Both the position numbers and the translations under genes were made by a program. The notes below the pieces were generated by a model, which was not told where the DNA came from, searched no databases, and saw only the letters and a program-made list of their open reading frames with translations. Below, in pieces: positions 17,832 to 62,369 of a stretch of 64,000 nucleotides of DNA. Positions within the stretch are counted from its first letter, which is position 1; every line of letters begins with the position of its first letter. The stretch comes from Ianthella basta (taxonomy: Eukaryota; Porifera; Demospongiae; Verongiida; Ianthellidae). Location of the stretch: the NCBI GenBank assembly GCA_964019415.1, contig OZ025882.1, forward strand, positions 2,230,927 to 2,294,926, given 5' to 3'.

Positions 17832-20225
17832 TTAGTAGATCTCAACTTGATTAGCTCCATATCTAGCTACCAGCAGGTCTCCATTTTGATCAAAGCTCAC
17901 AAAACGAGGTTTGTTCACATTAAGTGTATGCACCAGTTGCCCCTCTTGGTTGAAAATGGACACACGACTGTTGCCATAACTTGCTACCACAACATTCCCC
18001 TCTGTGGTGAAGGTAAGGCCCATAGGGCTACTGAGTTGGCCTTGTCCAAACTCCCTGACATACGTGCCATCAGCAGTGAAGACTTGCACTTGTGAATTGC
18101 TGTGATCACTGACATACAACTGTCCGTCTGGTGAGATGGCAATGTCATGGGGAGAACTAAACTGTCCAGCACCACTGCCTTTTGATCCAAAGGTGCGAAC
18201 CAGCTGACCATTCTGAGTGAGCACTGCTACACGATGGTTGCTGCTGTCTGCCACATAGACCTGGCCATTTGTATGGACTGTCACATCTAAAGGGCCTTGT
18301 ATCTGACCTTGTCCAATTCGTCTGACAAAGGTGCCATCTTCTCTGAAGATGTCTACACAGCCGTTGCTGTAGTTGGCAACAAACAGCAGACCATCTGCAC
18401 TGGTAGCAAGGCCTCTGGGGCTGAACAGCTGACCTGGTCCTGTCCCTTGTCCGCCAAATGTCTTAACATGCTTCCTTTGAGCATCAAAAACATGGATTTG
18501 GTGGGTATTACAATCAAATACAAAAATAGTGCCATTGGGAGACACAGCCATGCCCCAGAGATACTTAGGCTGCTGTGGACACTGAAGGACCCCTTTGCTG
18601 GCCTGCAATTTCTGAATATCTCCAGTGACCTTCTTGGACACCCACTGACCTTGCAGGAATACAGCTGGTGGCCCATCCTCAAACCTCACTGCAAACGGGC
18701 TGCCCTTGATGTGGTCCCCATTCACCAGTACAGTAAGCTCACACTTCCCAGTGTACACTGCATTGAAGGCCACCTGGTACTTCCCACCACCACTGTCCTC
18801 CACATCAGCTCTAATGGCCACACCGGGAAGTGGGCGGGCTGGACGAAGGAAGGCCTGCACTCTCTCCCCACCATCACTGCAGGCCACCCTGCTACTGTCC
18901 TTGGTGGTCAGAGTGAAAGCCACTGGTTTGGGGTCTAACTGCTCTTCCACTCCAGCTAAAGTGCACTCTTTAGGGCTTGCTCCTTGCTGGACATGGCCAA
19001 ACTCCTTGATGGCTGAGAGGAGAGCCTGCTCATTGAGAGGGACAATACGCACTACAGGAGACACACAAGGATGGACTTGCTGCCCTTGCACCTTGATGGT
19101 GGTAGCTGATGCCTTCACCTGGACCACACTCTGACTGGAGATGACCTCATGTTGGCTGCCTTGGGAACAGAGGAGAGACAGAGCAGTGTGAGCAGTGGAG
19201 AGTGCATCCTCTTCATCACTGCAGTTCTTGACACTGTTGGTTATGAGGTCCTTCTTCTGGTTGCAAGCTGCTGTGATCTCCTCACACACCTCCTCCTCAC
19301 GCTGTTTGATGGCAGTGCAAACTCGCTCAAACAAGCGATGTGCGTCCTCCAGTGCCTTCTCCCTTGATTGATCCAAAGTGGTGCTCTGAGCCTCAAGCCC
19401 CTCCTTCCTCCTCTGGTGGGCCTTCCTGGCAGTGCCCACCACTTGCTGGGCCACCTTCAGTGACTGCCTGTGTCTCTGGGACACACTGGGATCCAGGTAC
19501 TCAGGACGGTGAGGACCCTTGTTCAGAGCACAGGCGTGGCACATCAGAGTGTCACACCCTTCACAGTACCACTTTAGGACCTCATCGCCATGCCGGGGGC
19601 AGCTTTGGGGGACAGTCTTCTTCATGAAGACTGCCGCTGGGTTGGATGTCTGGTCAAGATCAAGAGAGGCTAGCTCTTCGACGGGTTTGACAGTGTGGCT
19701 ACCAGTAAGGTCACCCATGACCTGATGGCTTTCATGGCAAGCGGGGCAAAAGAATTTCCAGCAATCAATGCAAAATGCAACTGCCTTTGTGTTGTGGTTC
19801 TTGCACAAAGTGTTACCACACACCACAGGTGGGCTATCCCTTCCAACCATTTGTACAATCTTTCGACCTTCGATGTACCGACCCAGTGGTCCATTGTGTA
19901 CTGGAGCACACTGGGCCTCAACTACTTTACAGGCCTTCACATCTCGAAGTTGCTCTTGAGGTGCACATGTTGCATTGTTGTTGCACTTGGGGCATTGTAG
20001 GCGGCCATCTTGCTGCTTGACGGCTAGCAGGCACTCCCTGCACACAGAGTGCATGCAGCAGAGGAGGTGGGGGTCACACAGCTCCTTCTTGCACTGCACA
20101 CATGAGGTGTCAGGAGCAACAAAGAATGCATCTTCATCTTCCTCTTTTGTTTTTGCTGCCTTATGTTTCTCATTAGAAATTGCTTCATTCTCTTTTACTT
20201 GTTTCTTAGCTGGGCCTGTTGCCAT
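17832..20225 (-). CDS. TRIM-NHL protein, copy 2 (797 codons)
   Basis: Probable cytoplasmic RING-type E3 ubiquitin ligase of the TRIM2/TRIM3/TRIM71 layout. RING at about 42-81 (C42, C45, C57, H59, C62, C65, C78, C81); B-box 1 about 136-177; B-box 2 about 209-240 (C209, H212, C221, C224, C229, C232); coiled coil about 250-350; filamin-type repeat about 395-515; six NHL blades about 550-797. In known relatives the RING transfers ubiquitin and the NHL face binds RNA or protein; the ligand here is unknown. The coding region is one exon. The start has a good context (CACCATGGC), and TCTTCCTGTAG 11 bases upstream looks like an acceptor for a 5'-UTR intron. B-box 1 (about 19708-19815) differs sharply from the other copies while flanks match, suggesting gene conversion. 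NHL loop residues also differ between copies. No disablement seen. Confidence 0.94.
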   Translation of the reverse strand: MATGPAKKQVKENEAISNEKHKAAKTKEEDEDAFFVAPDTSCVQCKKELCDPHLLCCMHSVCRECLLAVKQQDGRLQCPKCNNNATCAPQEQLRDVKACKVVEAQCAPVHNGPLGRYIEGRKIVQMVGRDSPPVVCGNTLCKNHNTKAVAFCIDCWKFFCPACHESHQVMGDLTGSHTVKPVEELASLDLDQTSNPAAVFMKKTVPQSCPRHGDEVLKWYCEGCDTLMCHACALNKGPHRPEYLDPSVSQRHRQSLKVAQQVVGTARKAHQRRKEGLEAQSTTLDQSREKALEDAHRLFERVCTAIKQREEEVCEEITAACNQKKDLITNSVKNCSDEEDALSTAHTALSLLCSQGSQHEVISSQSVVQVKASATTIKVQGQQVHPCVSPVVRIVPLNEQALLSAIKEFGHVQQGASPKECTLAGVEEQLDPKPVAFTLTTKDSSRVACSDGGERVQAFLRPARPLPGVAIRADVEDSGGGKYQVAFNAVYTGKCELTVLVNGDHIKGSPFAVRFEDGPPAVFLQGQWVSKKVTGDIQKLQASKGVLQCPQQPKYLWGMAVSPNGTIFVFDCNTHQIHVFDAQRKHVKTFGGQGTGPGQLFSPRGLATSADGLLFVANYSNGCVDIFREDGTFVRRIGQGQIQGPLDVTVHTNGQVYVADSSNHRVAVLTQNGQLVRTFGSKGSGAGQFSSPHDIAISPDGQLYVSDHSNSQVQVFTADGTYVREFGQGQLSSPMGLTFTTEGNVVVASYGNSRVSIFNQEGQLVHTLNVNKPRFVSFDQNGDLLVARYGANQVEIY

Positions 20226-20433
20226 GGTGACAAAACTACAGGAAGAGATCAGTTAAAATTAATACCTTAACTAATGTCGAATGCCTTATAATGTGCATTT
20301 TGCATTATATGTTTGTTTCATGAATGCACACATCTACATAACTACATAATTACCTCTCAGCTAGGCTAGCTGTCATTCTTGTATTTAAACAGTGTTTAAT
20401 GCCCTCCTTCCTTTTGCTCTGTTCAAGTATTAG

Positions 20434-20549
20434 TTATAACACCTCCTTGAGGGATGTCGCTGATTTATAAGCACGAGGCCCGAGGGCACAAAGCGCCCGA
20501 GGGGGGAGTGCTTATAAATCAGTAACGTCCCGAAAAGGAGGTGTTATAA
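20434..20549. mobile_element. Foldback/MITE-like hairpin, ~116 bp
   Basis: Left end TTATAACACCTCCTT and right end AAGGAGGTGTTATAA are inverted; pairing continues through GATTTATAAGCAC against GTGCTTATAAATC and an inner GCCCGAGGGC-type segment. Almost the whole stretch folds back on itself. Unique to this spacer. Confidence 0.65.
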
Positions 20550-21683
20550 GTGATTTATTTGCCGAACAAAGGGAAGCGTGGGCGAATGTTAATTGGTTTC
20601 TTGCCAAATAAGGAAAGCAAAGGAAAGGTAGTGCGGGCGAATTCAATGCATTTTTATTCATTACGAGAGCTAGCTAGTGAGGAGCCAAGCGAGTCAGGCA
20701 GAAACGTCGGTATGCTACACCTCCAGAAACCTCTTCCTCTACAGAGGAGACGTCTTGCCCCACTCCTGCAACGTGATCGAAGGCGCCAACAAGACTTGGC
20801 TGGTGAATTGTGGTCGGTGGAAGGTGCGCCCGACGGCATTGGAGGCAGAGGGAGCCAAGCTGGCTCAGAGGAATCTGACAGTGGGACAGCACGATGGATC
20901 GGTGATCAGCTGCGTCGGAACTGACCGTGATCTGAGACTCTATGTTCGTTCAGTAGTTTGCTAGCTAGCTACGTACTTGAGATGTCTTTTCGACTGGGTC
21001 CTTTTGTGCGGAAGAATCGGCCACCATTGACGCACAAATTTCGTCGAATCGACAGCTGTAGTACGGTAGAACGGCAGTAATCAGTTTGTTCAGTGCTTCC
21101 AATAGGATGAAGCTTAAGCTTTTTGCGCCCTTTTCCATGACTGAAGCTACAGTGGCACCATAGATATTCAATACCCAACCATATTAATGGTTGAGTAGTG
21201 TAGAGTACTGTATGCTTCATTGAACTGTTCTTGTGTTTTGATCTGAATGCAAGCACTTGCATGTGAAGTGTTGCTGCTATTGATTGAACCACACTGAACC
21301 TGATTAGATATTTTCGTGAACCCGATTAGATATTCTTGCTCTCCAATAAGATATAATCACTCTCCTATAAGATATCGCTGTCTGATAACAAATTGTCACC
21401 TCTCACTGCAAGTAGCACTTTTATAGGCACTCAATAAACATAGTAACCACCTAGCAACGGCAAATAATTATATAATTATATATACTCTTGTGCATGGAAG
21501 TATATATAATTGTGCATAATCATTTATGCACTAGCTAAACTGTTACATGTGACATACCAAATGGCTGGAAAGTTTGGAGGGATTATATTTTGGTGGATTG
21601 ATTTGAGAGCAATCCACCCATAGCTAAATTATTACACTGTCATAGCTAATATCATTGTAGCATAGGGCTTGCCCAACCACCAA
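20550..21683. other. Spacer 2 segment, mostly unique to this unit
   Basis: From about 20350 to 21535 spacer 2 does not align with spacers 1, 3, 4 and 5 and lacks TIR element A. It includes the hairpin above, a possible exon-like frame (20677-20964) and AT-rich stretches with several ATTAGATAT/ATAAGATAT words near 21300-21390. From about 21536 ancestral spacer sequence resumes (ACATACCAAATGGCTGG). The source of the replaced segment is not visible. Confidence 0.6.
20677..20964 (+). other. Exon-like open frame, possible Ig-like domain fragment
   Basis: The frame is GC-richer than its surroundings. Its translation contains LFLYRGDVLPHSCNV, WLVNCGRWKV and, near the end, DGSVISCVGTDRDLRLYV. The last piece resembles the D-G-x-Y/V-x-C region of Ig-like domains. 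No clear acceptor or donor brackets it, and only part of a domain is present. It could be a captured gene fragment or chance. I do not recognise a family with confidence. Confidence 0.25.
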
Positions 21684-22342
21684 AGTAAAATCAGACAATT
21701 TGAGCAATCTGCCAAAATAGCTAGTTAGCTAGCTATATTAATTTCCAGCCATAATTATGGTAGTTATGAGCCAGTTAATATGTTCATTCAGTAGATTAAA
21801 TTATTTACCAGCAATGCACAAACTCCATGGAATAGCATCGTATTGAGTCACATTGAACATGTTATTATATAGCTCAAACTGCAGGCGACGGGCCCACGCA
21901 AGGCCAAGGTAGCTAGCTAGCTAATCCCAGCATTTAGCTACAGCTAGCTAGCTCTCTGTCTAGATCTTACTATGTAGCCTGAAACAGACACCATGGAGAC
22001 TTACGGCAGGTACTGTCTCTTGAGATGTCTAGATGGCTGATCACAAGATATGAGGCGTAGACACAGTAGTGCATGTCTGTAGTGAAGCGTGGGGCGAGAA
22101 GGAGATCACGTGCTGACTTTTATGCCACGCCCAATAAAATGACCTCTCAGAAATATGGCTGGAGAGAACAGTCATGATCATTTACTGCGAATGCTCGTCT
22201 GAACATAATCCAAGTGTACCATTTGCTATGTGTAACTCGGTGTACTGTCCATTGAAACTATGAAGCGCATAGGCAGCAAAGAGCTACTGTTTCGATCCAC
22301 CTGACACCCTCTTGTGACAGCTGTGAAGGTAATAGCTAAAGG
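21684..22342. repeat. Tandem duplication in spacer 2, first copy
   Basis: Begins GTAAAATCAGACAATTTG and ends at GAAGGTAATAGCTAAAGG; repeats at 22367-23046 with a 683-base period. It includes the candidate promoter block. This copy is the more diverged of the two from other spacers. Confidence 0.8.
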
Positions 22343-22366
22343 ACTAGCTACAAGGTCTGGGGACAC

Positions 22367-23046
22367 GTAAAATCAGACAATTTGAGCAATCTGCCAAAAT
22401 AGCTAGTTAGCTAGCTAGCTACACACCCAAAATTTCCAGTCATATGGTAGCTATGTATAGCGAGCTAGCTAATATGCTCATTCAGTAGATTAAATTGTTT
22501 ACCAGCAATGCACAAACTCCGTGTAATAGCATTGTATTGAGTCACATTGAACATGTTATTATATAGCTCCAGTTGCAGGCGACGGGCCCGCGCAAGGCCA
22601 AGGTATATAGCTAGCTATTCCCAGCATTTACAGCTAGCTAGCTCTCTCTGTCTAGATCTTACTATGTAGCCTGAAGCAGACACCATGGAAACTTACGGCA
22701 GGTACTGTCTCTTGAGATATCTAGATGGCTGATCACAAGATATGGGGCGTAAACACAGTAGAGCGCGTCTGTAGCGAAGCACGGGGCGAGAAGGAGATCA
22801 CGTGCTGACTTTTATGCCGCGCCCAATAAAATGGCCTCTCAGAAATCTGGCTGGAGATCGAGAGAACAGTTATTCACTGCAAATGCACGTCTGAACATAT
22901 TCCAAGTGTACCATTTGCTTTGTGTAACTCAGGCGTACTGTCCATTGAAACTATGTAGCGGATAGGCGACAAAGAGCTATCGCTTCGATGCAACTGACAC
23001 CCTCTTGTGACAGTTGTGAAGGTATTAGCTAGCTATAGCTAAAGGC
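22367..23046. repeat. Tandem duplication in spacer 2, second copy
   Basis: Closer to the other spacers than the first copy. Carries the CpG-rich block with GCGCCCAATAAAATGG; its counterpart of the possible ATG exon reads CCATGGAAACTTACGGCAG. Spacer 2 therefore has two candidate promoter blocks. Confidence 0.8.
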
Positions 23047-23272
23047 CGCCACCACCTCAGCCATCACATCCTCTGCAGTGTACACTACTGTAAATAGGAC
23101 ATGTACAGTATGAATGTGACTGCCCAGATATAGAGTGTTCTGTACTCTCTTGACTCCTACGTATATGCCCCTAGGGGAAGATATGAAGTAGATTTTAGCA
23201 TTGAAATGCAAAAACTGATGTAAATTTGGACTGGCAATGGATACATGTAATGATGGTACTCTGGAGAAGTCA

Positions 23273-23543
23273 CTAGCCAAAGATTTGATTCTTTACCAAA
23301 TGTTTCATCAGCTGACTGCTGCCTTCTTCAGTGGAGGCTGCTGTAGAAACATTTGGTAAAGAATCAGATCTTTGGCTAGCAACTTCCGAGAGGACTACCA
23401 GTGATGCAACCTTGCTGGACGAGCTTCTACCCCTTTACATTACATTACCAGTCACACAAGAGATAGGCACAGTGCAGCATGAGCCGCGTGCTCTCTCAAG
23501 GACCCTCTGCACTCTCTTCCTCTTTCTGTACCTACGTATGTAG
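23273..23543. repeat. Inverted repeat and conserved open frame, unit 3
   Basis: Arms at 23273-23306 and 23346-23379 pair over 34 bases with a single mismatch, the best of the four copies. The 70-codon frame (23331-23543) starts inside the hairpin. As in unit 2, no family is recognised. Confidence 0.6.
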
Positions 23544-23998
23544 GAGACCATTTGTAGGGTGCTCTCCATCAGTGGACCAGCTAGGGTTCTGTCTGTGTGT
23601 AAGGTGAGTGGACAGTACAAGTGTGAGCAAGTACCACCTGTGCATGTGCTGTGTGCGTCCCTGAGTGTGATGATGCATCATGTACAGTACGTACTAATGT
23701 GCATGCAATACATGCTAGTACATGTGTGCATTGTGTGGTGTATATGTACAATACATACTGCACTGTATGGGCACATAAATGACATTTTACAGTAAAGTGT
23801 GTGGTGCTTATGTATAATACTTTGTCTGTGGTGTGTGTGTTATGAAGTAGCTGTAGTCAATGTGATGTGCTCCTCCATCAACGAGATCACCAAACCCTGC
23901 ACTGTATGTACGTATGTGTGTAGCTTGTGCTAAGAGTGCATGCTGTAGCTGGTCCATGGTCTCGCCCCTTCCCTTTCCTATCCATTGTTGTCGCTCAG

Positions 23999-25266
23999 GA
24001 TGCATCCGTCGGTGTGTGGTCGCCCTCCCTCCAGTTCCAGCAAGGATTTGTTGCCTGTGAGGAAGATGTGGCCGCTGCATCCTCCCTCTACACTGCTGGT
24101 GGAGGTGGAGGGCGGAGGAACAAGGTGATGGTGACTGACTGTGTGCTGATGGAGAACTGCTCTAAGCTGGTGTTGGCAGTCACCAAGCGAGAGCTGCAGT
24201 TCCATGACGTCCCTTCGGGGTCCAACAGTGGACAGACCCTGAGGATCAAGGTGTTTGGTACGTCAGTGTACACACTGTACTGCAACTCTGTCTGGATTGG
24301 TGTTCTCTCCAGTAGTATTCTAGTGACACATTATACAAGTGTGATACAGTTACATACAGTATGTAATGAATACTAAATGAATGTATGTGTTGCTGTGTTA
24401 CTGTGGAGGTGATTTCTTACAAATCATTCTTTGTCCTTGTTGCTTCATGCTAGACTCCTTTAAATGTATTCTACTACACTACACTATACTACACAACACA
24501 TACATACATACATACCTATATACCATACATGCACATACATACACACATATATATGCATTGCATCTCATTCTAGATCTCCCCTATGTGCCACTGTGTCTGG
24601 ATTACTATGGAAACGTAAGTCACTAAGCGACTGTGTGAGCCGTCCTGTAGTGTGAGTGTGTGGCTGCATATGTCACACCACTGTTTTTCCCTCAGGTCCA
24701 AGGAGAGCTGTCACATCTGCTGTATGGTGACGAGAGTGGTGACGTCCATGTACTGACATTTGCGAACCCCTGTACTCATCTGTTTGGAATGGAGACTAGA
24801 AAATCCAGTGGAGTCACACCACGGATTAGCTACAATGTAAGTGTTAATGTCAGTACATTTACACATGTGAATGCCCATGTCAGTACAACTAAAATGTAGT
24901 GATTGTTCTGCATACATGCAGTTATGATAATGCACCAAGTCTTCCTCCTTCCTTCACTTCTCTCTCATCCCCTTCCCTCATTTCTCTCTCTACTCTCCTC
25001 CCCATACTTCTCTTTCCCTCCCTTCACTTCTCTCTCCTCGTCTCCGTCCCTCCTCCCCTCCTTACCCTTCCCAGCTCCTTCAGGACCAGGCTCCCCAAGT
25101 GCTCCATCAAGTGGTGTCAGGGCTACATGTGGACTGGGTCCACCGAGTGCAGTACCTCCCTGAGAACCATGGCTTCCTGTCCTGCTCCTCTAGTCAGCCT
25201 TCACTGGTCATCAAAGACCTCCTCTCTCGGCAGAAGGCCTACACCTTTAGGATAAGGAAGGTGAGG

Positions 25267-25308
<42 letters not shown>

Positions 25309-28300
25309 GTGTGCTGTGTGTGCGTGTGTGTGTGTGCGCGCATGTGCGCGTGCCTGTTTATGTCACTTATGTAATAACACGCTTCTACAGCAGTACCAAA
25401 ATACGTACATTCATGTCAGCAGTACTTTGTGGGACACTACCGTGCTGTCTATGTAGGGATGGTGACGGTTGTTTGTACGTATATGCTGTAATGTGGAAGC
25501 AAAGTACTAAAAGTAAGTAGAGTTGGTTCTGCTGACACACTGCCAGCCCCTCCCACTGTTCAGGGTGTGGAGTGCTTTGCCTATGACTCTGACCTGACTG
25601 TGCTGGCCACTGGAGGCATGGATCACGCTGTGAGGCTCTGGAACCCTTACGTCACGTCCAAGCCCATTGCCTACCTCCAGCAGCATAACACCACAATCCT
25701 GGACCTTGTCATCTATAGGGAACTTGGGCTCCTCTTCAGCTATTCACAAGATGGGGTAGGTGGACGGTGACAACACACAGACACATGTACACACACACAC
25801 CAATACAGTCACACACACAAACACATTTACATGTGTTCATGTCATGTTGAATCTGTGCCTGTGTTGTACATGTGTACTTGTGCACACTAAAGATGTTGGG
25901 GACTAGTGTACACACATACGTAGTACAACCTACGCCACACCCACATCACTGTAGTGTACGTGTGGCCATCCCATGCAGTGTGTGAATGCTCCATGGCACA
26001 CTCATCCTCCCCACTCTCTCTCTTAGATCATGTGTGCATGGGACCTGTATGAGCACAGCCTGGTCCAGGTGATCTCTGTCAAGTTCCCCTTCATCCAGCG
26101 CCACCTGGACCACGGCAGCAGGCCGATCGTCAGAGGGTTCAGGTCCCTTTCACCTTCCCTCATTGTCACCTCCAATGAGTTCCTGGCAGAATATGAGCTT
26201 GGCACACTGGCTGGCACCAACACTGGGGGCGTGGTGACAACACACCCCGCCCCCGTCACTGCTGCAGTGTACAGCCCACTATTCAGACAGGTACTAGACA
26301 TACGTACAACATATGAGCCCATTGTGTGCTGCACCACATGAAGAACGGTGTGCGTAGTATTTATTTGCTAGCCTCATCTGTCTCAATCATTCAACAACTT
26401 CACATGATGAGACAGGATGGAGCTGGTGGCTAGAGTAGAAACAGTGCTATTCCGATATTCGATATTGTAATCCACATTTGAGACAGCACAACTGTCGATG
26501 AAAGTCCCGCAGCATCACAACTCCAACATACGTACAGCTATGATTGAGCTGACATGTTACAACATGCACTGTGTAACAGTTTTGAAGTGCTCCATTGTAC
26601 GTATGTACCTTGTAACTCTGAACTGGCAATTGCATATTACTACCTTACATAAATGTGTAGGGTTGCTGCATGTTGTGAAGGCACATTCATAGTCCATTGC
26701 TGCTCTCCTCAGGTTATTGTTGGATGTGAAGGTTCCACCGTGACAGTGTGGGACATTGACAGTGGAAACAAGGTCCTCCATTTTCCTTGCTGCCATGGCG
26801 ACACCGAGATTACCTGCCTGCAGTTGGATTCTAGTAGGCGGAGACTAATCACTGGCTCTCGCTACGGTGGAGTGAAGGTGTGGAACTACCACACGGGGGA
26901 GTGCCTCAAGACGCTCCACCACAACCACAAGACAGAAGTGACTGGTGTAGTCAGCATTGCTGACAAGGGTCTCTTGTTCACTGTGGGCTGGAGCAAGCAG
27001 ATCACAGCCTTCCCAGATGAGGAAGATGTGAGCCAACAACAGCACTCATGCACACATCCCAGTGGTTGTTCTGTAGGCCACTAAATTTGTCTCCTGTATA
27101 CGTATGTAAATGTGGTTGTACATGTACAATGAGGGTTGTGGGATAGCCACATACGTACAATATGTATGTGGATAGTGTGTATATGTTTACGGTCATTGGG
27201 CTACCTCAAGTATGTACATGTGCATAGACAGTAGCTTTTTGTGCTATCTCTCAACCATTGACTCTACTACTGTACATTGTGCCATTTTCAGATAATGACC
27301 TGAATACAGCTCTGTCCTCTCCCTTTATGCATTAGCTCAGCCTTGTTTCTTCCATTCACCTTCTTCAGGTCTTTGATGCCACTCCTCTGGGTGGCTGGGA
27401 GGGGAGAGGCAAGCACAGTGAGGATATCCTCTGTCTCAACTACCTCCCTCCACGGTTCCTGGCCACTGGGAGCTTTGATGGGGTGATCAAGGTGTGGAAC
27501 TTTGAGAGCACACAGCTGGTCAGGCAGTTCAGCTCTCCATCCCCTGCTCTGCCCATCTTTGACCCCATGTACGTAAGTGTGGCTACTGGCAGTAGTGTGC
27601 ATGCACACACACCTTTACACATGCACAACACACGTTGCAGTACTGGTATTCAAGATACGTGAATGGATTTGTGCTGTAGCTGTGATCAGCTTACGTCATA
27701 TTCCTTTACTGACACAGAGCACTGTGATACTGTCTATTATTATACAGTACATCTGGTGCCTCCACAAAGCTAATGTTGTTGCAAGCGTCTATTTAACTGA
27801 TATAGTACATGTCAAACTCCCCCCCCCCCCCCCTCCCCACCCAACCCTTATACCTCCCATGTAGGAGGAACCTGAGAAAGTCCAGCTGTGCCTCTTTCAG
27901 AGTGGGCACTGGTTCAGTGAACAGCAGCCACCTCTCAGTCCCAGCCTCCCGACCAGCTAGCAGGAGGATGTCCTCATACAGATTGAAACTGGCATCGTGA
28001 GTCAGCACACCTCCATACTGTACACATACACCATGAATAGCTGTGAATGGGGTACGTACAGTATGTGCTAATGCATTGTATGTATGTGCATGATATAGAC
28101 ACATGTTTAGTTTAGATGACATCTGTGGGATTCTATGTGTAAAGTGCTGTCCCATCAACCCAACAATGGTTAGGAGGTCTTCACTGTGTGACTCCTCCAT
28201 GGCAGTAACTTGATGCAGACAGTACTATTGGCTAGTCAGTGCAGCACTTGCTCTCCATCCCCCTCCCTTGCTGTGTAGGATGCAGTTCAAGCGAGCACCA

Positions 28301-30972
28301 GTGGACCAGATCCTCTTCCTCCATAATCGTGCATGTACTAAACTACGGGGCTGTGGCACCTTGGTAACTAGCGACCATGGGGAGGCGAGATTCTGGGATC
28401 TTTTTGGCCCAGATGATCCCCTGGGGTCCTTTCCCCTGACCCAGAACCCCGAGGAGCAGGTAGTTGCCTTGTCCACTGACAGGGAGAACCATGTGCTGGT
28501 GGCTGGAGACACTGCTGGTATGATAGCAGTGTTTGACATCAAGGACTACTGCATGGTGACAGGAAAGGTGGGCAGCACTAACATTCCACCATTGCTACTA
28601 CGTACTAGTAGGATTGGTGCAATGTTGCACCTGCTGCCTGCATCTTTTCTCTGCTCTGCTGCAAGTTGCTGAGTTTCTGTATGACTTTATGTCAGTTTTA
28701 GTGTTTCACATATTGTGATAAATAGCCTTCTTCAGTGCTCACCTCATTACCACATTGTGTGGGCTATATACGTTTTGGCATACATGCCTCACTAGACCCA
28801 GCTGTACGTAGATCGCCACATCTGTTGTCACTCCCTCTCACCCCAGTACACCCTCCCTCCCACCCCAGTCACCCTCCCTCTCACCCCAGTGCACCTTCCC
28901 TCCCACCCCAGTGTACCCTCCCTCTCACCTCTCTCCCTTGCAGTCGTACAGCCCCCTCATCCCCACCCGCAGCTGGTTGGCACACAGTGCAGAGGTGACC
29001 TCCCTACAGCTGATCTGCCAGGAGAGGGAGCCACTGGTCCTCTCGTCCTCAGCGGATGCCACCGTACGTCTTTGGACTCTGAAGGGACACTATATTGGCA
29101 CCTTTGGTCAGGACAAGGCCTGGGACCTGGACCAGCCCTCCACCTTCCACCATCCAAAGTGAGAAGTGAAACGCATGCATGTTAATGCCGACAGTTGGTG
29201 ATTGTACCGTCGTAAAATTCCTGTGTTGTATCCTGTTACACATGGAAACTGATACTATAATCATATTATGGGTTGCATGTGTTTTATATCTACATTGGTA
29301 GTGCCACTGCTGATGTGTACATGTGTATGCACTGCATGTCTGTCTTTGTTCCAAAGGACTCCATGGGGAGACATGCAGCGATCAAGACTAGCAGTGTCCA
29401 GACTCTGTGAGTGTGTAGCATTGTAGACTAGTGTTAGTGGAAGTGTATAATTTTATGCAATTATGTATATCTCCATTGTGGTGAATGAATGTGTGTGATA
29501 CTACCTGTTACTATGGTAACTGGAGGATGTATGGTTTGAATTTCACTGTGTACAAGCCATCCTCTGCCATACATTATACCCTTTGTGTGTCATCTGCTGT
29601 TGTAGCCACCTCAGCCACCTCCAGCTACAAGTCATTGACTGAGGCAGTGAGACCAGCCCAACCCACCACTGCTGGTGGAGACTCCTCTACTAATGACAGG
29701 GTTAAACCCGTTGCCACTATCCAAGAGGGTGAGGGTGAGTTGGGTGGAGATGAGGCATCCAACATCTCAAATGAGGCCACAGACAACACCGATAGCTTGA
29801 AGGACCAGGTCAGTGACTGAAGTGGTTTTCAGATGTAGTGGAATAAGGTATACTGTATAGAGGGATATTTTCAAGAGAAAATGTCTCATGAACCAATTTA
29901 AACTTGAGCTCAAACAGGATTTGTGAGGACATTTTGTGATGATAAGCCACGCCCCCTGTACAATGGTGGTATTTCGACAACATGCACACTACTTTCCTTG
30001 AAAGGACAACCAGTATTCAGATAATGCTTTGTAAAAGAAATGCAAGGACTAGTGCTGTCATTGTGCTCCATGGCTCATGTCCCATGCAATGTGAGCCCTC
30101 TCCTTTGGTAAAGTGCTAGCTATTATGAGTGGGCTACAAACAGATTTCCTTTAACTATATCACTATATTGCTGTTGATTACCTTCTTCACTGCTTCATTG
30201 ACAGCTGTGATAGTGGACACCAGTACTACTGTTCACAGTGAAGTAGCTTGCTCAAGTGGTTGTACAGTGACCTTGATCACAGACTCACCCTATGTCAGTG
30301 AGATCAAGAGCATGAGGCACACTGAGCCTTCTGAGTATGCACAGCTAGTCAGCTGCTGTGTTTCTGACCATCATTCTGTCTAAGTTTGTCACCCAATGTA
30401 TAAGCATTGGATTAATGCAGAAGTTTTGCTGAGACAATTTTGGCAAATCTTAAACTATCCGCAGAATTTGTAATATTCTCCTGTGAAAATTTCCAGCTTT
30501 ACAGTATAAGTTTGTTGTGTGGCATTGTACATGGCCATTAAAACAAACTAGAACTCTATTGACTAGCCTACCAAACTGTAAGGAGGTGTCCACTCTGTCC
30601 CACATATCTCTCCCTCTACTACAGAATGCTCTTGGTCAGCGTTACAAGAAGCAGCTTGTTTGTCGCATGAGAGGTCGGAAGGAGAGGAGGGAGGTCTACT
30701 CTGAGATTGACCTCAAGTCCACACAGAGGTTTGGAGCAATCTGCTCACCATTCCAAGCACTGCAGCTCACAGTAAGTGGTCTACTCTTACAGAATGTGTA
30801 GCTGTGTTTGTACAATGACTGTATGGTATATATGGCCGTCTGGCTACACAAGACAAGCTGTTTGCATCCCTCCCCCACCCCTCAGTCAGTAGATGACCAT
30901 CCTGTGATGTCAGACAAGGGGAGAAAGGTGGAACACACTACAAAGAATGCAGTGAAACTTCAGCTGAACTGA
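23999..30972 (+). CDS. WDR49-like WD40 protein, copy 3 (906 aa in 15 exons, N-terminus not found)
   Basis: Exons: 23999-24257, 24574-24614, 24696-24836, 25075-25260, 25564-25755, 26027-26290, 26713-27027, 27369-27568, 27865-27996, 28279-28567, 28944-29158, 29357-29406, 29606-29808, 30625-30771, 30886-30972. Every junction is GT-AG, phases join, and the sum is 2721 bases with one stop at the end. The product is a run of WD40 blades with marks such as VRLWNPYVT, MCAWDLYEH, VTVWDIDSG, VKVWNYHTG, IKVWNFEST, ARFWDLFGP and VRLWTLKGH, then a Ser/Thr linker and a basic tail with FGAICSPFQAL. From memory, VTDCVLMENCSKL and LWNPYVTSKPI match WDR49/WDR64 closely. The family's function is poorly known; scaffold roles are typical of WD40 proteins. 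Exon 1 starts mid-protein, so upstream exons are missing or unrecognised; a possible one lies at 23855-23913. Confidence 0.87.
25268..25352. repeat. (GT)n microsatellite in WD40 intron 4, copy 3
   Basis: An impure GT run starts seven bases after the exon 4 donor (AAG/GTGAGGC). Length differs greatly between copies: 85 bases here, 102 in copy 4, about 16 in copy 5. Confidence 0.9.
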
Positions 30973-31334
30973 TCCGGCCATTGATGATTCCATTTTCAAT
31001 GATGTTACTAAACTCACAGGATCAGACATTATGCAATTTTACTGTCCACAGATGCAAGAAATATGCATGAAACATTTTTATTAGAAGCAATTACATAAGC
31101 ATACAACACCTTGATCATTACTATAAATTACTATTAAAGTACATGTCTATATAGAATTCGATATACTGTGCATGTGTACATAATAGTAAATACAGCTAGC
31201 CCAAATGTGTATACAGCCATAGATACTGTGTAGTAGCTATGATACAGCGAACAAGCAGTTTAAATTTAATGCTATATGCAAAAACCTAGTAGTTGCTCAT
31301 ATAAAAGGACAGTAAAGTGGACTGGGTTTGGTTG
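30973..31334. promoter_or_regulatory. Convergent 3' ends with candidate poly(A) signals, unit 3
   Basis: Minus-strand AATAAA at 31077-31082 and plus-strand ATTAAA at 31133-31138, crossing as in unit 1. Upstream, the intron 14 hairpin has collapsed to one arm. Confidence 0.45.
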
Positions 31335-33719
31335 TTAGTAGATCTCAACTTGTTTGGCTCCATAACTAGCTACCAGCAGGTCTCCATTTTGATCAAAGCT
31401 CACAGAACGAGGAGTGTTCACATTAAGTGTATGCACCAGTTGTCCCTCTTGGTTGAAAATGGACACACGACTGTTGCTATAACTTGCTACCACAACATTC
31501 CCCTCTGTGGTGAAGGTAAGGCCAATAGGGCTACTGAGTTGGCCTTGTCCAAACTCCCTGACATACGTGCCATCAGCAGTGAAGACTTGCACTCGTGAAT
31601 TGTTGTAATCACTGACATACAACTGTCCGTCTGGTGAGATGGCAATGCCACGGGGACAACTAAACTGTCCAGCACCACTGCCGTATGATCCAAAGGTGCG
31701 AACCAGCTGACCATTCTGAGTGAGCACTGCTACACATTGGTTGCTGTTGTCTGCCACATAGACCTGGCCATTTGTATGGACTGTCATGTCTAAAGGGCCT
31801 TGTATCTGACCTTGACCAATTCGCCTGACAAAAGTGCCATCTTCTCTGAAGATGTCTACACATTGGTTCCTTTGGTTGGCAACAAACACCAGACCATCAG
31901 CACTGGTGGCAAGGCCTCCAGGGTAGTACAGCTGACCTGGTCTTGTCCCTAGTCCACCAAATGTCTTAACATGGTTCCTTTGAGCATCAAACACATGGAT
32001 TTGGTGGGTATTACAATTAGACACAAAAATAATGCCATTTGGAGACACAGCTATGCCCCATGAATTGGTTCGCTGTGGGAACTGAAGGATTCCTTTGCTG
32101 GCCTGCAATTTCTGAATATCTCCAGTGACCTTCTTGGACGCCCACTGACCCTGCAGGAATATAGCTGGTGGCTCATCCTCAAACCTCACTGCAAATGGGC
32201 TGCCCTTGATGTGGTCCCCATTCACCAGTGCAGTAAGCTCACACTTCCCAGTGTACACTACATTGAAGGCCACCTGGTACTGCCCACCACCACTGTCCTC
32301 CACCTCAGCTCTAATGGCCACACCGGGAAGTGGGCGAGCTGGACGAAGGAAGGCCTGCACTCTCTCTCCACCACCACTGCAGGCCACCCTGCTACTGTCC
32401 TTGGTGGTCAGAGTGAAAGCAACTGGTTTAGGGTCTAACTGCTCTTCCACTCCAGCTAAAGTGCACTCTTTAGGGCTTGCTCCTTGTTGGACATGGCCAA
32501 ACTCCTTGATGGCTGAGAGGAGAGCCTGTTCATTGAGAGGGACAATACGCACCACAGGAGACACACAAGGATGGACTTGCTGCCCTCGCACCTTGATGGT
32601 GGTGGCTGATGCCTTTAACTGGACCACACTCTGACTGGAGATGACCTCATGTTGGCTGCCTTGGGCACAGAGGAGAGACAGGGCAGTGTGAGCAGTGGAG
32701 AGTGCATCCTCTTCATTGCTGCAGGTCTTGACTCCGTTGGTTATGAGGTCCTTCTTCTGGTTGCAAGCTACTGTGATCTCCTCACACACCTCCTCCTCAC
32801 GCTGTGTGATGGCAGTGTGAGCTCGTTCAAACAAGCGATGTGCATCCTCCAGTGCCTTCTCTCTTGACTGATCTAATGTGGTGCTCTGAGCCTCAAGCCC
32901 CTCCTTCTTCCTCTGGTAGGCCTTCCTGGCAGTGCCCACCACTTGCTGGGCCACCTTCACTGACTGCCTGTGTCTCTGGGACACACTGGGATCCAGGTAC
33001 TCAGGATGGTTAGGACCCTTGTTCAGAGCACAGGCGTGGCACATCAGAGTGTCACACCCCTCACAGTACCACTTCAGGATCTCATCGCCATGTTGGGGGC
33101 AGCTGTGGGGGACAGCCTTCTTCATGAAGACTGCTGCTGGGTTGGATGTCTGGTCAAGATCAAGAGAGGCTAGCTCTTTGACGAATTTTACAGTGTGGCT
33201 ACCAGTAAGGTCACTCATAAGCTGATGCCCATCAAGGCAGGCAGAGCAGAAGAACTTCCAACAGTCTGTGCAGAAGGCAACTGCTTTAGCATCACTAGTC
33301 TTGCACGACGTGTTACCACACACCACAGGTGGGCTATCCCTTCTAACCATTTGTATGATCTTTCGACCTTCAATGTATCGACTCAGTGGTCCATTGCGTA
33401 CTGGAGCACACTGGGCCTCAACTACTTTACAGGCATTCACACCTTGAGGTTGCTCTTGAGGTGTACGTGTTGCATTGTCGTTGCACTTGGGGCATTGTAG
33501 GCGGCCATCTTGCTGCTTGACGGCTAGCAGGCACTCTCTGCACACAGAGTGCATACAGCACAGGAGGTGGGGGTCACACAGCTCCTTCTTGCACTGCACA
33601 CATGAGGTGTCAGGGGCAACAAGGAACACCTCTTCCTTTTCTGTTTTTGCTGCCTTCTGTTTCTCATTAGAAATTGTTTCATTCTCTTTCACTGGTTTCT
33701 CAGCTGGTCCTGCTGCCAT
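31335..33719 (-). CDS. TRIM-NHL protein, copy 3 (794 codons)
   Basis: Same layout as copy 2: RING with all eight ligands, two B-boxes, coiled coil, filamin-type repeat, six NHL blades. Three codons shorter near the N-terminus (KTEKEEVF instead of KTKEEDEDAF). Its NHL loops are the most divergent: SNCNTHQIHVF in blade 1, LYYPGG and ANQRNQCVDIF in blade 2, ADNSNQCVAVL in blade 3, SCPRG in blade 4, NTPRS in blade 6. The NQC variants replace the usual N-x-R of NHL repeats. Single exon, CACCATGGC start context and the upstream TCTTCCTGTAG acceptor-like site are kept. No disablement seen. Likely E3 ligase; ligand unknown. Confidence 0.94.
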   Translation of the reverse strand: MAAGPAEKPVKENETISNEKQKAAKTEKEEVFLVAPDTSCVQCKKELCDPHLLCCMHSVCRECLLAVKQQDGRLQCPKCNDNATRTPQEQPQGVNACKVVEAQCAPVRNGPLSRYIEGRKIIQMVRRDSPPVVCGNTSCKTSDAKAVAFCTDCWKFFCSACLDGHQLMSDLTGSHTVKFVKELASLDLDQTSNPAAVFMKKAVPHSCPQHGDEILKWYCEGCDTLMCHACALNKGPNHPEYLDPSVSQRHRQSVKVAQQVVGTARKAYQRKKEGLEAQSTTLDQSREKALEDAHRLFERAHTAITQREEEVCEEITVACNQKKDLITNGVKTCSNEEDALSTAHTALSLLCAQGSQHEVISSQSVVQLKASATTIKVRGQQVHPCVSPVVRIVPLNEQALLSAIKEFGHVQQGASPKECTLAGVEEQLDPKPVAFTLTTKDSSRVACSGGGERVQAFLRPARPLPGVAIRAEVEDSGGGQYQVAFNVVYTGKCELTALVNGDHIKGSPFAVRFEDEPPAIFLQGQWASKKVTGDIQKLQASKGILQFPQRTNSWGIAVSPNGIIFVSNCNTHQIHVFDAQRNHVKTFGGLGTRPGQLYYPGGLATSADGLVFVANQRNQCVDIFREDGTFVRRIGQGQIQGPLDMTVHTNGQVYVADNSNQCVAVLTQNGQLVRTFGSYGSGAGQFSCPRGIAISPDGQLYVSDYNNSRVQVFTADGTYVREFGQGQLSSPIGLTFTTEGNVVVASYSNSRVSIFNQEGQLVHTLNVNTPRSVSFDQNGDLLVASYGAKQVEIY

Positions 33720-33844
33720 GGTGATGAATACTACAGGAAGAGATCAGCTAAAATTAATACCTTAACTAATGGCATATGCCTATAATGTGCATTTTGCATT
33801 ATACGTTTGCTTCATGAATGCACACATCTACATATCCACATAAA

Positions 33845-37025: not shown

Positions 37026-37096
37026 TCTATTGCCTCGCAGTGGCTAACTGCAAAAGCAATTGGCCCCCTTTAGAGTATGCGGTGCTTATGTATAAT

Positions 37097-37929: not shown

Positions 37930-38130
37930 CAATGCTTGCATTCGCCTAGTACTTTGTCTGCAGTGTGTGTGTTATGAAGTAGCTGTAGTCAATGTGATAT
38001 GCTCCTCCATCAACGAGATCACCAAACCCTGCACTGTATGTACGTATGTGTGTAGCTTGTGCTAAGAGTGCATGCTGTAGCTGGTCCATGTTCTCGCCCC
38101 TTCCCTTTCCTATCCATTGTTGTCGCTCAG

Positions 38131-44866
<6,736 letters not shown>

Positions 44867-47615: not shown

Positions 47616-47740
47616 GGTGATGAATACTACAGGAAGAGATCAGCTAAAATTAATACCTTAACTATCGTCATATGCCTATAATGTGCATTTTGCATTATGC
47701 ATTTGTTTCATGAATGCACACATCTATATATCCACATAAA

Positions 47741-49772: not shown

Positions 49773-50043
49773 CTAGCCAAAGATTTGATTCTTTACCAAA
49801 TGTTTCATCAGCTGACTGCTGCCTTCTTCAGTGGAGGCTACTGCAGAAATGTTTGGTAAAGAATTAGATCTTTGGCTAGCAACTTCCGAGAGGACTACCA
49901 GTGATGCAACCTTGCTGGACGAGCTTCTACCCCTTTACATTACATTACCAGTCACACAAGAGATAGGCACAGTGCAGCATGAGCCGTGTGTTCTCTCAAG
50001 GACCCTCTGCACTCTCTTCCTCTTTCTGTACCTACGTATGTAG
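49773..50043. repeat. Inverted repeat and conserved open frame, unit 5
   Basis: Arms 49773-49806 and 49846-49879; the 70-codon frame (49831-50043) is open. See 10434-10704. Confidence 0.6.
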
Positions 50044-50304
50044 GAGACCATTTGTAGGGTGCTCTCCATCAGTGGACCAGCTAGGGTTCTGTCTGTGTGT
50101 AAGGTGAGTGGACAGTACAAGTGTGAGCAAGTACCACCTGTGCATGTGCTGTGTGTGTCCCTGAGTGTGATGATGCATCATGTACAGTACGTACTAATGT
50201 ACATGCAATACATGCTAGTACATGTGTGCATAGTGTAATTTATATGTACAATACATACTGTACTGTATGGACACATAAATGACATTTTACAGTAGAGTAC
50301 GTGG

Positions 50305-50766: not shown

Positions 50767-50837
50767 TATATTGCTTCACAGTGGCTAACTGCAAAAGCAA
50801 TTGGCCCCCTTTAGAGTATGCAGTGCTTATGTATAAT

Positions 50838-51671: not shown

Positions 51672-51872
51672 CAATGCTTTCATTCGCCTAATACTTTGTC
51701 TGTGGTGTGTGTGTTATGAAGCAGCTGTAGTCAATGTGGTGTGCTCCTCCATCAACGAGATCACCAAACCCTGCACTGTATGTACGTATGTGTGTAGCTT
51801 GTGCTAAGAGTGCATGCTGTAGCTGGTCCATGGTCTCGCCCCTTCCCTTTCCTATCCATTGTTGTCGCTCAG

Positions 51873-59620: not shown

Positions 59621-59981
59621 TCCGGCCATTGATGATTCCATTTTCAATAATGTTACTGAACTCACAGGATCAGACATTATGCAATTTTACTGTCCACAGA
59701 TGCAAGAAATATGCATGAAACATTTTTATTAGAAGCAATTACATAAGCATACAACACCTTGATCATTACTATAAATTACTATTAAAGTACATGTCTATAT
59801 AGAAATACTGTGCATGTGTACATAATAGTAAATACAGCTAGCCCAAATGTGTATACAGCCATAGATACTGTGTAGTAGCTATGATACAGCGAACAAGCAG
59901 TTAAATTTAATGATATACGCCAAAATCTTAATACGTGTGTTGTTCATATGAAAGGACAGTAAAGTGGACTGGGTTTGGTTG
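59621..59981. promoter_or_regulatory. Convergent 3' ends with candidate poly(A) signals, unit 5
   Basis: Minus-strand AATAAA at 59725-59730 and plus-strand ATTAAA at 59781-59786, crossing as in unit 1. Confidence 0.45.
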
Positions 59982-62369
59982 TTAGTAGATCTCAACTTGT
60001 TTGGCTCCATAACTAACTACCAGCAGGTCTCCATTTTGATCAAAGCTCACAGAACGAGGTTTGTTCACATTAAGTGTATGCACCAGTTGTCCCTCTTGGT
60101 TGAAAATGGACACACGGTTGTTGCTATAACTTGCTACCACAACATTCCCCTCTGTGGTGAAGGTAAGGCCCATAGGGCGACTGAGTTGGCCTTGTCCAAA
60201 CTCCCTGACATATGTGCCATCAGCAGTGAAGACTTGCACTCGTGAATTGCTGTAATCACTGACATACAACTGTCCATCTGGTGAGATGGCAATGCCATGG
60301 GGAGAACTAAACTGTCCAGCACCACTGCCTTGTGATCCAAAGGTGCAAACCAGCTGACCATTCTGAGTAAGCACTGCCACACGATGGTTGCTGTTGTCTG
60401 CCACATAGACCTGGCCATTTGTATGGACTGCTACATCTATAGGGTATTGGATCTGACCTTGTCCAATTCGTCTGACAAAAGTGCCATCTTCTCTGAAGAT
60501 GTCTACACAGCTGTTGATGTAGTTGGCAACAAACAGCAGACCATCAGCACTGGTGGCAAGGCCTCTAGGGCTGGACAGCTGACCTGGTCCTGTCCCTTGT
60601 CCACCAAATGTCTTAACATGCTTCCTTTGAACATCAAACACATGGATTTGGTTGGCATAAAGATCACATACAAAAATTGTGCCATTTGGAGACACAGCTA
60701 TGCCCCAGAGATTATTAGGCTGCTGTGGAAACTGAAGGATTCCTTTGCTGGCCTGCAATTTCTGAATATCTCCAGTGACCTTCTTGGACACCCATTGACC
60801 CTGCAGGAATACAGCTGATGGCTCATCCTCAAACCTCACTGCAAATGGGCTGCCCTTGATGTGGTCCCCATTCACCAGTACAGTAAGCTCACACTTCCCA
60901 GTGTACACTACATTGAAGACCACCTGGTACCGCCCACCACCACTGTCCTCCACCTCAGCTCTAATGGCCACACCGGGAAGTGGGCGAGCTGGACGAAGGA
61001 AGGCCTGCACTCTCTCCCCACCACCACTGCAGGCCACCCTGCTACTGTCCTTGGTGGTCAGAGTGAAAGCCACTGGTTTGGGATCCAATCTCTCTTCCAC
61101 TCCAGCTAAGGTGCACTCTTTAGGGCTTGCTCCTTGTTGGACATGGCCAAACTCCTTGATGGCTGAGAGGAGAGCCTGCTCATTGAGAGGGACAATACGC
61201 ACCACAGGAGACACACAAGGATGGACTTGCTGCCCTCGCACCTTAATGGTGGTAGCTGATGCCTTTACCTGGACCACACTCTGACTGGACATGACCTCGT
61301 GTTGGCTGCCTTGGGCACAGAGGTGAGACAGGGCAGTGTGAGCAGTGGAGAGTGCATCCTCTTCATCGCTGCAGGTCTTGATGCTCTTGGTTATGAGGTC
61401 CTTCTTCTGGTTGCAAGCTGCTGTGATCTCCTCACACACCTCCTCCTCACGCTGTGTGATGGCAGTGCGAGCTCGTTCAAACAAGCAATGTGCATCCTCC
61501 AGTGCCTTCTCCCTTGATTGATCCAAAGTGGTGCTCTGAACCTCAAGCCCTTCCTTTTTCCTCTGGTAGGCCTTCCTGGCAGTGCCCACCACTTGCTGGG
61601 CCACCTTCAGCGACTGCCTGTGTCTCTGGGACACACTGGGATCCAGGTACTCAGGACGGTGAGGGCCCTTGTTCAGAGCACAGGCGTGGCACATCAGAGT
61701 GTCACACCCCTCACAGTACCACTTTAGGACCTCATCGCCATGTTGGGGGCAGCTGTGGGGGACAGCCTTCTTCATGAATACTGCTGCTGGGTTGGATGTC
61801 TGGTCAAGATCAAGAGAGGCTAGCTCTTTGACGGATTTTACAGTGTGGCTACCAGTAAGGTCACTCATAAGCTGATGCCCATCAAGGCAGGCAGAGCAGA
61901 AGAACTTCCAACAGTCTGTGCAGAAGGCAACTGCTTTAGCACCACTAGTCTTGCAAGACGTGTTACCACACACCACAGGTGGGCTATCCCTTCTAACCAT
62001 TTGAACGATCTTCTGACCTTCGATGTACCGACCTAGTGGTCCATTGCGTACTGGAGCACACGGGGCCTCAACTACTTTACAGGCCTTCACACCTCGAGGT
62101 TGCTCTTGAGGTGTACGTGTTGCATTGTCATTGCACTTGGGACATTGCAGGCGGCCATCTTGCTGCTTGACAGCTAGCAGGCACTCCTTGCACACAGAGT
62201 GCATGCAGCAGAGGAGGTGAGGGTCACACAGCTCCTTCTTGCACTCCACACATGAGGTGTCAGGGGCAACAAGGAACACCTCTTCCTCTTCTGTTTTTGC
62301 TGCCTTCTGTTTCTCATTAGAAAATGCTTCATTCTCTTTCACTGGTTTCTCAGCTGGTCCTGTTGCCAT
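59982..62369 (-). CDS. TRIM-NHL protein, copy 5 (795 codons)
   Basis: Intact RING, B-boxes, coiled coil, filamin-type repeat and six NHL blades in one exon. Closest to copy 4 in the first 500 residues. NHL loops form a new combination: QQPNNLW and DLYANQIHVF in blade 1, ANYINSCVDIF in blade 2, SSPHG in blade 4, LSRPMG in blade 5, ASYSNNRVSIF and NKPRS in blades 5-6. Arginine before TFGS in blade 3 is cysteine (LVCTFGS). Start context and the upstream acceptor-like TCTTCCTGTAG are kept. No disablement seen. Likely E3 ligase; ligand unknown. Confidence 0.94.
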   Translation of the reverse strand: MATGPAEKPVKENEAFSNEKQKAAKTEEEEVFLVAPDTSCVECKKELCDPHLLCCMHSVCKECLLAVKQQDGRLQCPKCNDNATRTPQEQPRGVKACKVVEAPCAPVRNGPLGRYIEGQKIVQMVRRDSPPVVCGNTSCKTSGAKAVAFCTDCWKFFCSACLDGHQLMSDLTGSHTVKSVKELASLDLDQTSNPAAVFMKKAVPHSCPQHGDEVLKWYCEGCDTLMCHACALNKGPHRPEYLDPSVSQRHRQSLKVAQQVVGTARKAYQRKKEGLEVQSTTLDQSREKALEDAHCLFERARTAITQREEEVCEEITAACNQKKDLITKSIKTCSDEEDALSTAHTALSHLCAQGSQHEVMSSQSVVQVKASATTIKVRGQQVHPCVSPVVRIVPLNEQALLSAIKEFGHVQQGASPKECTLAGVEERLDPKPVAFTLTTKDSSRVACSGGGERVQAFLRPARPLPGVAIRAEVEDSGGGRYQVVFNVVYTGKCELTVLVNGDHIKGSPFAVRFEDEPSAVFLQGQWVSKKVTGDIQKLQASKGILQFPQQPNNLWGIAVSPNGTIFVCDLYANQIHVFDVQRKHVKTFGGQGTGPGQLSSPRGLATSADGLLFVANYINSCVDIFREDGTFVRRIGQGQIQYPIDVAVHTNGQVYVADNSNHRVAVLTQNGQLVCTFGSQGSGAGQFSSPHGIAISPDGQLYVSDYSNSRVQVFTADGTYVREFGQGQLSRPMGLTFTTEGNVVVASYSNNRVSIFNQEGQLVHTLNVNKPRSVSFDQNGDLLVVSYGAKQVEIY

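Follow-up and report, generated by a model that had tools for sequence, protein, structure and literature searches.

Class VII TRIM-NHL proteins (TRIM71/LIN-41, TRIM2/3, Brat, Mei-P26 and Thin) are known as products of few, conserved genes, and known animal recognition repertoires mostly use immunoglobulin, leucine-rich repeat, C-type lectin, SRCR or B30.2 folds. Amplified TRIM genes with positively selected loops in the C-terminal domain are described for fish (finTRIM, btr and hltr) and primates (TRIM5 and TRIM22) in the available portion of one report (PMC3137616). For propellers, the available portion of a study of fungal het-d and het-e (PMC1805685) places positively selected WD40 codons 7 and 9 in the D-A loop and 25 and 27 in the B-C turn, on top of the HET-E and HET-D propeller; each selected pair flanks a conserved residue, and repeats are exchanged among family members. 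A 64-kb stretch of the genome of the sponge Ianthella basta, here called the window (assembly GCA_964019415.1, contig OZ025882.1, positions 2,230,927 to 2,294,926), contains five TRIM-NHL copies, all on the minus strand, four intact and one frameshifted. They are part of the C15 array, which has ten intact and three broken TRIM-NHL copies. The propeller scaffold and the RING are nearly constant, whereas diversifying selection acts on the D-A and B-C loops of the propeller's top face in three TRIM-NHL families and one kinase-linked NHL family. To judge from sequence, the arrays are probably a tandemly amplified germline repertoire of recognition proteins in which the top face of the NHL propeller serves for variable binding.

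The four families, C15, C16, C13 and C11, are named by the contig carrying the array. The genome has 56 TRIM-type places (57 rows), some of them broken, and 44 entered the tests: ten from C15, 25 from C16 (including one on C14) and nine from C13. Six others were aligned only (single places on C7, C1 and C21, two on C9, and C16:1354331) and six were unused (three broken C15 copies, C16:5567192 with a stop, C1:8973548 and C16:1229162). The codon tests of C11 used 23 of its 139 places and two trees.

The loop strings that the initial annotation quoted for five copies are all present in the translations. Reading from copy 1 to copy 5, they are SPNG/SPHD/CPRG/CPRG/SPHG in blade 4, YN/HS/YN/HN/YS after VSD, FGSY/FGSK/FGSY/FGSQ/FGSQ at the FGSx step, NQNN/NYSNG/NQRNQ/NYSNH/NYINS in blade 2 and NAPR/NKPR/NTPR/NYPR/NKPR in blade 6; blade 1 has CNTHQ versus LYAHQ/LYANQ. 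Strand residues hardly change, with a nonsynonymous divergence (dN) of 0.03-0.06 in C15, and the differences do cluster, in every blade, in two places: the D-A loop, about the x-P-x-G step, and the B-C loop, within D-x-x-N-x. With the proline of x-P-x-G numbered 0, variation falls at -2, -1 and +1 in the D-A loop and at +16, +17 and +19, the x residues of D-x-x-N-x, in the B-C loop; blades 1 and 3 add position +37. Two results place the clustering beyond chance. The six most variable positions form an identical set in C15, C16, C13 and C11. When a 48-codon top-loop mask is slid along the domain through 46 offsets, the nonsynonymous rate peaks at offset 0 in C15, C16 and C13, and by dN/dS (nonsynonymous to synonymous ratio, written w below) this offset ranks first, first and third, respectively. 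The variable-site string is distinct in every copy (10/10 in C15, 25/25 in C16, 9/9 in C13 and 23/23 in C11), and pairs within a TRIM family differ on average at 17-23 of 32 variable positions. The B-C loop of blade 2 is two residues shorter in four of 12 C16 copies (L026, L029, L030 and L035) and in all nine from C13.

Selection on these loops is seen by likelihood and, in C15, also by counting. Pairwise counting (NG86, with bootstrap intervals) gives a w of 0.78 (0.56-1.07) for the C15 NHL domain versus 0.15-0.61 in other segments. The C15 top loops reach 1.63 (1.03-3.16), with 0.32 in the bottom loops, 0.44 in the non-top NHL and 0.31 in residues 1-515. A purpose-written codon model of MG94 type, with class-wise synonymous and nonsynonymous rates and three trees per TRIM family, yields a top-loop w of 3.6-4.3 in C15, 2.4-2.65 in C16 and 1.5-1.6 in C13 (p 0.017-0.05), together with 0.39-0.70 in bottom loops and 0.50-0.67 in strands of the three families. 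On the whole-NHL tree the top-loop values are 4.3, 2.5 and 1.5; the test against w=1 leads to rejection for C15 (p 1e-8) and for C16 (p 2e-13) and is borderline for C13 (p 0.05). C11 behaves similarly (n=23), with a w of 2.9-3.1 in top loops (p <1e-16), 0.58-0.59 in bottom loops and 0.56-0.58 in strands. Blade-wise trees, which allow for recombination, give 3.9, 2.65, 2.0 and 2.8 for C15, C16, C13 and C11 (p <=0.003).

Several controls point the same way. When the 28 sites that vary most in one family are evaluated in a different family, w is 2.4-2.8 in C15, 1.5 in C16 and 1.2-1.3 in C13. Pooled over the four families, 22 sister pairs show a w of 1.35 in top loops versus 0.56 elsewhere (Fisher p 2e-23, on counts). 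Sites with a posterior above 0.9 make up, in C15, 20 of 48 top codons, nine of 231 other NHL codons and three of the 515 codons that precede the domain; in C16, 23 of 48 top and eight of 231 other NHL codons; and in C13, four of 48, one of 231 and none of 515. An external yardstick is offered by two noncoding stretches of the duplication unit, picked for clean alignment, whose mean divergence between units is 0.038 and 0.041; other 500-base bins of the unit have means of 0.022-0.087, leaving out the first three bins (0.14-0.26, misaligned at indels) and one empty bin. In the four intact window copies, the proportion of nonsynonymous differences (pN) in the top loops is 0.195 (0.139-0.252), or 4.9 times the noncoding divergence, with 0.019 in bottom loops, 0.033 in strands and 0.039 in residues 1-515. 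A scatter of variable sites over all faces is ruled out by the structure-class dN/dS, the mask offsets and this noncoding comparison. In C15, likelihood and counting both show the dN/dS above 1 on a single face that the initial annotation had named as support, and values stay below 1 in the bottom loops, the strands and the remainder of the protein; the pattern extends by likelihood to C16 and C11, and most weakly to C13.

Other results weigh against diversifying selection or temper it. By counting, the top-loop w is 1.23 (0.85-1.70) in C16 and 0.99 (0.65-1.65) in C13, so that only C15 is significantly above 1, and C13 sister pairs alone give 0.92. Outside the NHL domain, the posterior exceeds 0.9 at a further 17 of 515 sites in C16. 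C13 has a raised top-loop synonymous rate (p ~0.002), and so, weakly, does C11 (p 0.006 on one tree, borderline at 0.05 on the other); the signal is therefore weakest in C13, which also has the counting value of 0.99. An equally high synonymous rate in these codons is rejected for C15 (test for a raised rate, p 0.72-0.89) and C16 (p 0.16-0.22), and not fully for C13 and C11. TRIM synonymous divergence (0.07-0.12) exceeds the noncoding yardstick (0.04), so gene and flanks have partly different histories. Finally, recombination between copies can inflate dN/dS tests, and because recombining paralogues are compared, the p values look over-exact. What carries the case for selection is that it is confined to one face, that the controls agree and that the pattern recurs across four families.

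The D-A and B-C loops of a propeller open on the same face. A structure model places each of the six B-C stretches between strands B and C and has the D-A stretches run up to the beginning of strand A in each blade. The initial annotation had placed these loops on the face that binds RNA or partners in TRIM71- and Brat-type propellers, and for RNA the LIN41 structure agrees: the available text of PMC5908797 lists 14 RNA-contact residues in zebrafish LIN41, and all 14 fall at -2, -1, +1, +16 or +17, five of the six most variable positions (the contact letters agree with the human TRIM71 chain at 14/14). The top face might then bind RNA as in LIN41 and Brat, the copies having diversified for different motifs in viral, transposon or own mRNAs, a reading that is doubtful but draws on more than this overlap. 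Acidic residues are scarce at the variable sites of C15 and C13 (0-1%), net charge is mostly positive, and aromatic residues can stack on bases. Across the three TRIM families, Ser, Tyr, Asn, His, Arg, Gly, Trp and Cys are common at the variable sites; Phe, Trp, Tyr and His make up 26-28% of the residues there versus 0-3% in bottom loops, and acidic residues 0-9%. However, Lys and Arg reach 8-17% and net charge per copy runs from -1 to +5, below the expectation for a LIN41-like basic pocket, and the Arg and Lys positions of LIN41 are freely replaced. Moreover, TRIM2 and TRIM3 NHL domains have no known RNA surface in common with LIN41 or Brat, according to the available text of PMC5908797. Conserved RNA binding as in a TRIM71/LIN-41 orthologue was rejected: conservation is lacking at the contact positions, which belong to the most variable ones, and Lys and Arg make up only 8-17% at variable sites. 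The composition, as read from the translations, more closely resembles protein-binding loops than a LIN41-like basic pocket, and is compatible with RNA.

A role in allorecognition within the species, like that of fungal het genes, instead of defence is unlikely on present evidence. Sessile colonial animals need fusion control, which speaks for such a role. So does the selection on the same two loops in the fungal HET-E WD40 domain, as given in the available portion of PMC1805685, but the present results fit pathogen recognition equally well.

It is highly improbable that the loop codons are local hot spots or gene conversion tracts that vary from mutational causes, without selection on the protein. 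The codon composition is suggestive, as variable codons are mostly NRY (0.54-0.64 versus 0.26-0.27 elsewhere) and Ser is AGY-biased in C13 (30 versus 2 TCN) and C15 (42 versus 16), though not in C16 (34 versus 34), and the raised synonymous rate in C13, and weakly in C11, would fit. Single-step changes among Tyr, Asn, Ser, His, Cys, Arg, Asp and Gly would nevertheless already yield NRY codons, the synonymous rate is not raised in C15 or C16, hot spots would be required at the same repeat positions in twelve separate short loops, and the intervening Pro, Asp and Asn residues are largely preserved. Relaxed constraint after duplication, with the loops as a tolerant surface, is hardly tenable and already contradicted: the loops are exposed and nearly constant in length and C13 does not exceed 1 by counting, but rates are above neutral (w >1 by likelihood in four families, besides the noncoding comparison), bottom loops, RING and scaffold are conserved, and so is the WD-repeat gene within the same duplication unit.

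A recognition repertoire accommodates the pattern as follows. The top face of the NHL propeller would be a variable site at which each copy binds a ligand of its own; non-self or fast-changing proteins are the likeliest ligands, RNA a less likely one. In the TRIM form, the bound ligand would be delivered to the RING E3 ligase for ubiquitylation; in the C11 form, binding would trigger the kinase. Tandem duplication, probably with exchange between copies, would generate new combinations. The selection pattern thus supports the suggestion in the initial annotation of selection for different ligands, from which a recognition or defence function is a reasonable inference.

Exchange between copies is likely. 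The pairwise homoplasy index (PHI) is significant in C15 over the full coding sequence and within the NHL (0/500 permutations), in C16 over the full coding sequence, with a p of 0.56 in the NHL, and in C13 over both (0/500 permutations and p 0.03). The nearest relative of a C15 copy often switches along the gene. Synonymous sites alone leave seven of nine tests non-significant, including C15 (p 0.12 with 59 full-length sites, p 0.71 with 11 NHL sites). The impression that loop states are reshuffled between copies is therefore upheld in part, in C15 by PHI over the gene and the NHL, and not by synonymous sites alone. The first B-box of C15 (residues 126-186) has a synonymous divergence of 0.53 as opposed to 0.10-0.30 in other segments; its two types, SHNTKAV..CPACHESHQVM and TSGAKAV..CSACLDGHQLM, are common to non-neighbouring copies, as after exchange.

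The kinase-linked family has at least 139 NHL exon places, 126 of them on C11 (at least 142 rows, seven of 142 with stops). Gene L065 combines, on one strand, an NHL exon with matches to SH2 (E 2.6e-6) and to a kinase (E 1e-33); read by eye, its phase-0 donor (AAG|GTGAAT) and its acceptor (CTGCAG|GTGAAG) are compatible with an in-frame splice. The kinase is presumably of the TKL type; its closest sequence of solved structure is CTR1. A genome search with it finds at least 102 places. Among the matches listed, a same-strand kinase lies within 5 kb upstream of 84 of 139 NHL places, against 38 with a kinase downstream and none with an opposite-strand kinase upstream; conversely, a same-strand NHL lies within 5 kb downstream of 86 of the 102 kinases. 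Against a general kinase link, 55 of the 139 places have no kinase within 5 kb upstream among those matches, and the link is one of genomic adjacency. Upstream DNA of eight C11-type exons contains a kinase at five and none within ~1.9 kb at L085, L086 and L087; for one of these three, C11:765896, a kinase lies 3.1 kb upstream. Kinase and NHL at 2.139/2.142 Mb and 2.303/2.306 Mb of C11 have equal scores ~164 kb apart, and the 2.14-2.15 and 2.30-2.31 Mb pair is a recent large duplication or an assembly duplicate.

A broader, tentative proposal joins both forms into a two-armed propeller receptor system of at least 195 NHL places (56 TRIM-type and 139 C11-type, some broken), possibly the principal non-self or allorecognition repertoire of the animal. 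Its arms, a ubiquitin ligase and an SH2-type kinase, would have in common a variable face to which each of the six blades contributes five to six contact residues, and its diversity would be renewed by duplication and exchange.

All eight zinc ligands of the C3HC4 RING are kept in 42 of 42 readable copies (44 examined), and w is 0.15 in the RING region of C15 (residues 37-84, by counting). The RING matches the TRIM56 RING chain (E 4e-5), with Pfam RING models below cut-off only. B-box PF00643 is above cut-off in both window copies scanned, and residues 246-400 occupy the place expected of a coiled coil, between B-box and C-terminal domain; the TRIM3 chain 8amr aligns at 197-363. The filamin domain and the C-terminal NHL propeller assign the proteins to class VII. 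The propeller of five full-length copies scores best as NHL, and the Pfam families given for these copies (E 0.5; 25 of 27 families for one copy) include neither B30.2/SPRY nor NACHT. None of 40 genome SPRY matches lies within the C15 TRIM array; 14 cluster on one strand at C2:9.05-9.17 Mb, another possible recognition-type expansion.

The features of the window are collected in the table. The coordinates of the initial annotation are correct for the four intact copies; copy 1 (2039-2884) lies outside the interval it gave, 17832 to 62369. In copy 1, the NHL frame (2039-2884) and the RING-to-filamin frame (2877-4442) overlap and differ in frame, and its genome row, C15:2233797-2235344, has two TGA.

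Features of the window (copies numbered along it; residue numbering follows copy 3; sites named in the loop rows have a C15 posterior >0.9)
Feature	Position	Strand	Remarks
Copy 1 TRIM-NHL	2039..4442	-	broken; excluded from tests
Copy 2 TRIM-NHL	17832..20225	-	intact single-exon open reading frame, 797 aa; Pfam B-box, filamin, NHL; translated open frame 17832-20252
Copy 3 TRIM-NHL	31335..33719	-	intact, 794 aa; numbering reference; translated open frame 31335-33743
Copy 4 TRIM-NHL	45231..47615	-	intact, 794 aa; translated open frame 45231-47639
Copy 5 TRIM-NHL	59982..62369	-	intact, 795 aa; translated open frame 59982-62393
Copy 3 RING	33483..33602	-	aa 40-79; 8 zinc ligands
Copy 3 second B-box	33027..33107	-	aa 205-231
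Copy 3 filamin domain	32193..32477	-	aa 415-509
Copy 3 NHL six-bladed propeller	31338..32174	-	aa 516-794
Copy 3 blade 1 D-A loop	32058..32069	-	aa 551-554; site 552
Copy 3 blade 1 B-C loop	32004..32015	-	aa 569-572; site 569
Copy 3 blade 2 D-A loop	31917..31928	-	aa 598-601; sites 598, 599
Copy 3 blade 2 B-C loop	31863..31874	-	aa 616-619; sites 616, 617, 619
Copy 3 blade 3 D-A loop	31791..31802	-	aa 640-643; sites 641, 643
Copy 3 blade 3 B-C loop	31737..31748	-	aa 658-661; sites 658, 659, 661
Copy 3 blade 4 D-A loop	31650..31661	-	aa 687-690; sites 688, 690
Copy 3 blade 4 B-C loop	31596..31607	-	aa 705-708; sites 705, 706
Copy 3 blade 5 D-A loop	31524..31535	-	aa 729-732; site 730
Copy 3 blade 5 B-C loop	31470..31481	-	aa 747-750; site 748
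Copy 3 blade 6 D-A loop	31407..31418	-	aa 768-771; site 769
Copy 3 blade 6 B-C loop	31353..31364	-	aa 786-789; site 789
Duplication unit	20226..33719	.	~14 kb; WD-repeat gene exons on +, TRIM on -
WD-repeat gene exons	14734-15583, 23942-24235, 25066-25260, 28280-29159, 38074-38367, 39047-39241, 42106-42959, 51816-52109, 52845-53039, 56400-57712	+	
LINE-type retrotransposon, long open reading frame	4655-7510	-	endonuclease and reverse transcriptase; upstream of broken copy 1
Tandem repeat	56837-57500		between WD exons of unit 4; proline/serine-rich reading frames, several frames

The WD-repeat gene is co-duplicated with each TRIM copy, which stands on the opposite strand among or beside the WD exons. 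Between units these exons have a dN of 0.0097, a synonymous divergence of 0.055 and a w of 0.18, indicating purifying selection. A scan of prokaryote contigs for relatives gave one match (25%) among 36 candidate stretches (L064), which was not used because the alignment is out of register, and a scan of viral contigs confirmed none of 23. Five short cysteine peptidase stretches from the genome show no silicatein signature, a result without weight either way.

If the interpretation as a recognition repertoire is true, the sponge has an NHL-propeller recognition system whose binding site is readable straight from sequence, and it becomes testable how an antibody-less animal might distinguish many ligands. 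By title or abstract start, the partly covered open-licence literature contains no expanded or diversified TRIM-NHL or kinase-NHL family from a sponge or other animal, and partial literature coverage, searched likewise, no SH2-kinase with a hypervariable NHL.

Compared with the few, conserved genes of class VII TRIM-NHL proteins elsewhere, there are tens of tandem copies here and the contact face is diversified. The kinase-linked gene resembles TKL-type kinases with SH2 in having both matches on one strand, but the C11 form adds a C-terminal hypervariable NHL propeller. Among TRIMs, the fish B30.2 proteins are the closest functional parallel (available portion of PMC3137616): finTRIM, btr and hltr, like primate TRIM5 and TRIM22, are amplified TRIM genes with positively selected loops in the C-terminal domain, although that domain is a B30.2 sandwich in these proteins and an NHL propeller with filamin in the sponge. 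Among propellers, the closest parallel is the WD40 domain of fungal HET-E and HET-D, where, in the available portion of PMC1805685, selection acts on the same two loops, D-A and B-C; the fungal NWD proteins couple a NACHT NTPase to WD40, whereas the sponge families couple an E3 ligase or a kinase to NHL. Four families, with two or more effector types between them, vary most at one set of six repeat positions, and their loops match those selected in HET-E, which suggests that propellers have repeatedly been recruited as variable binding sites.

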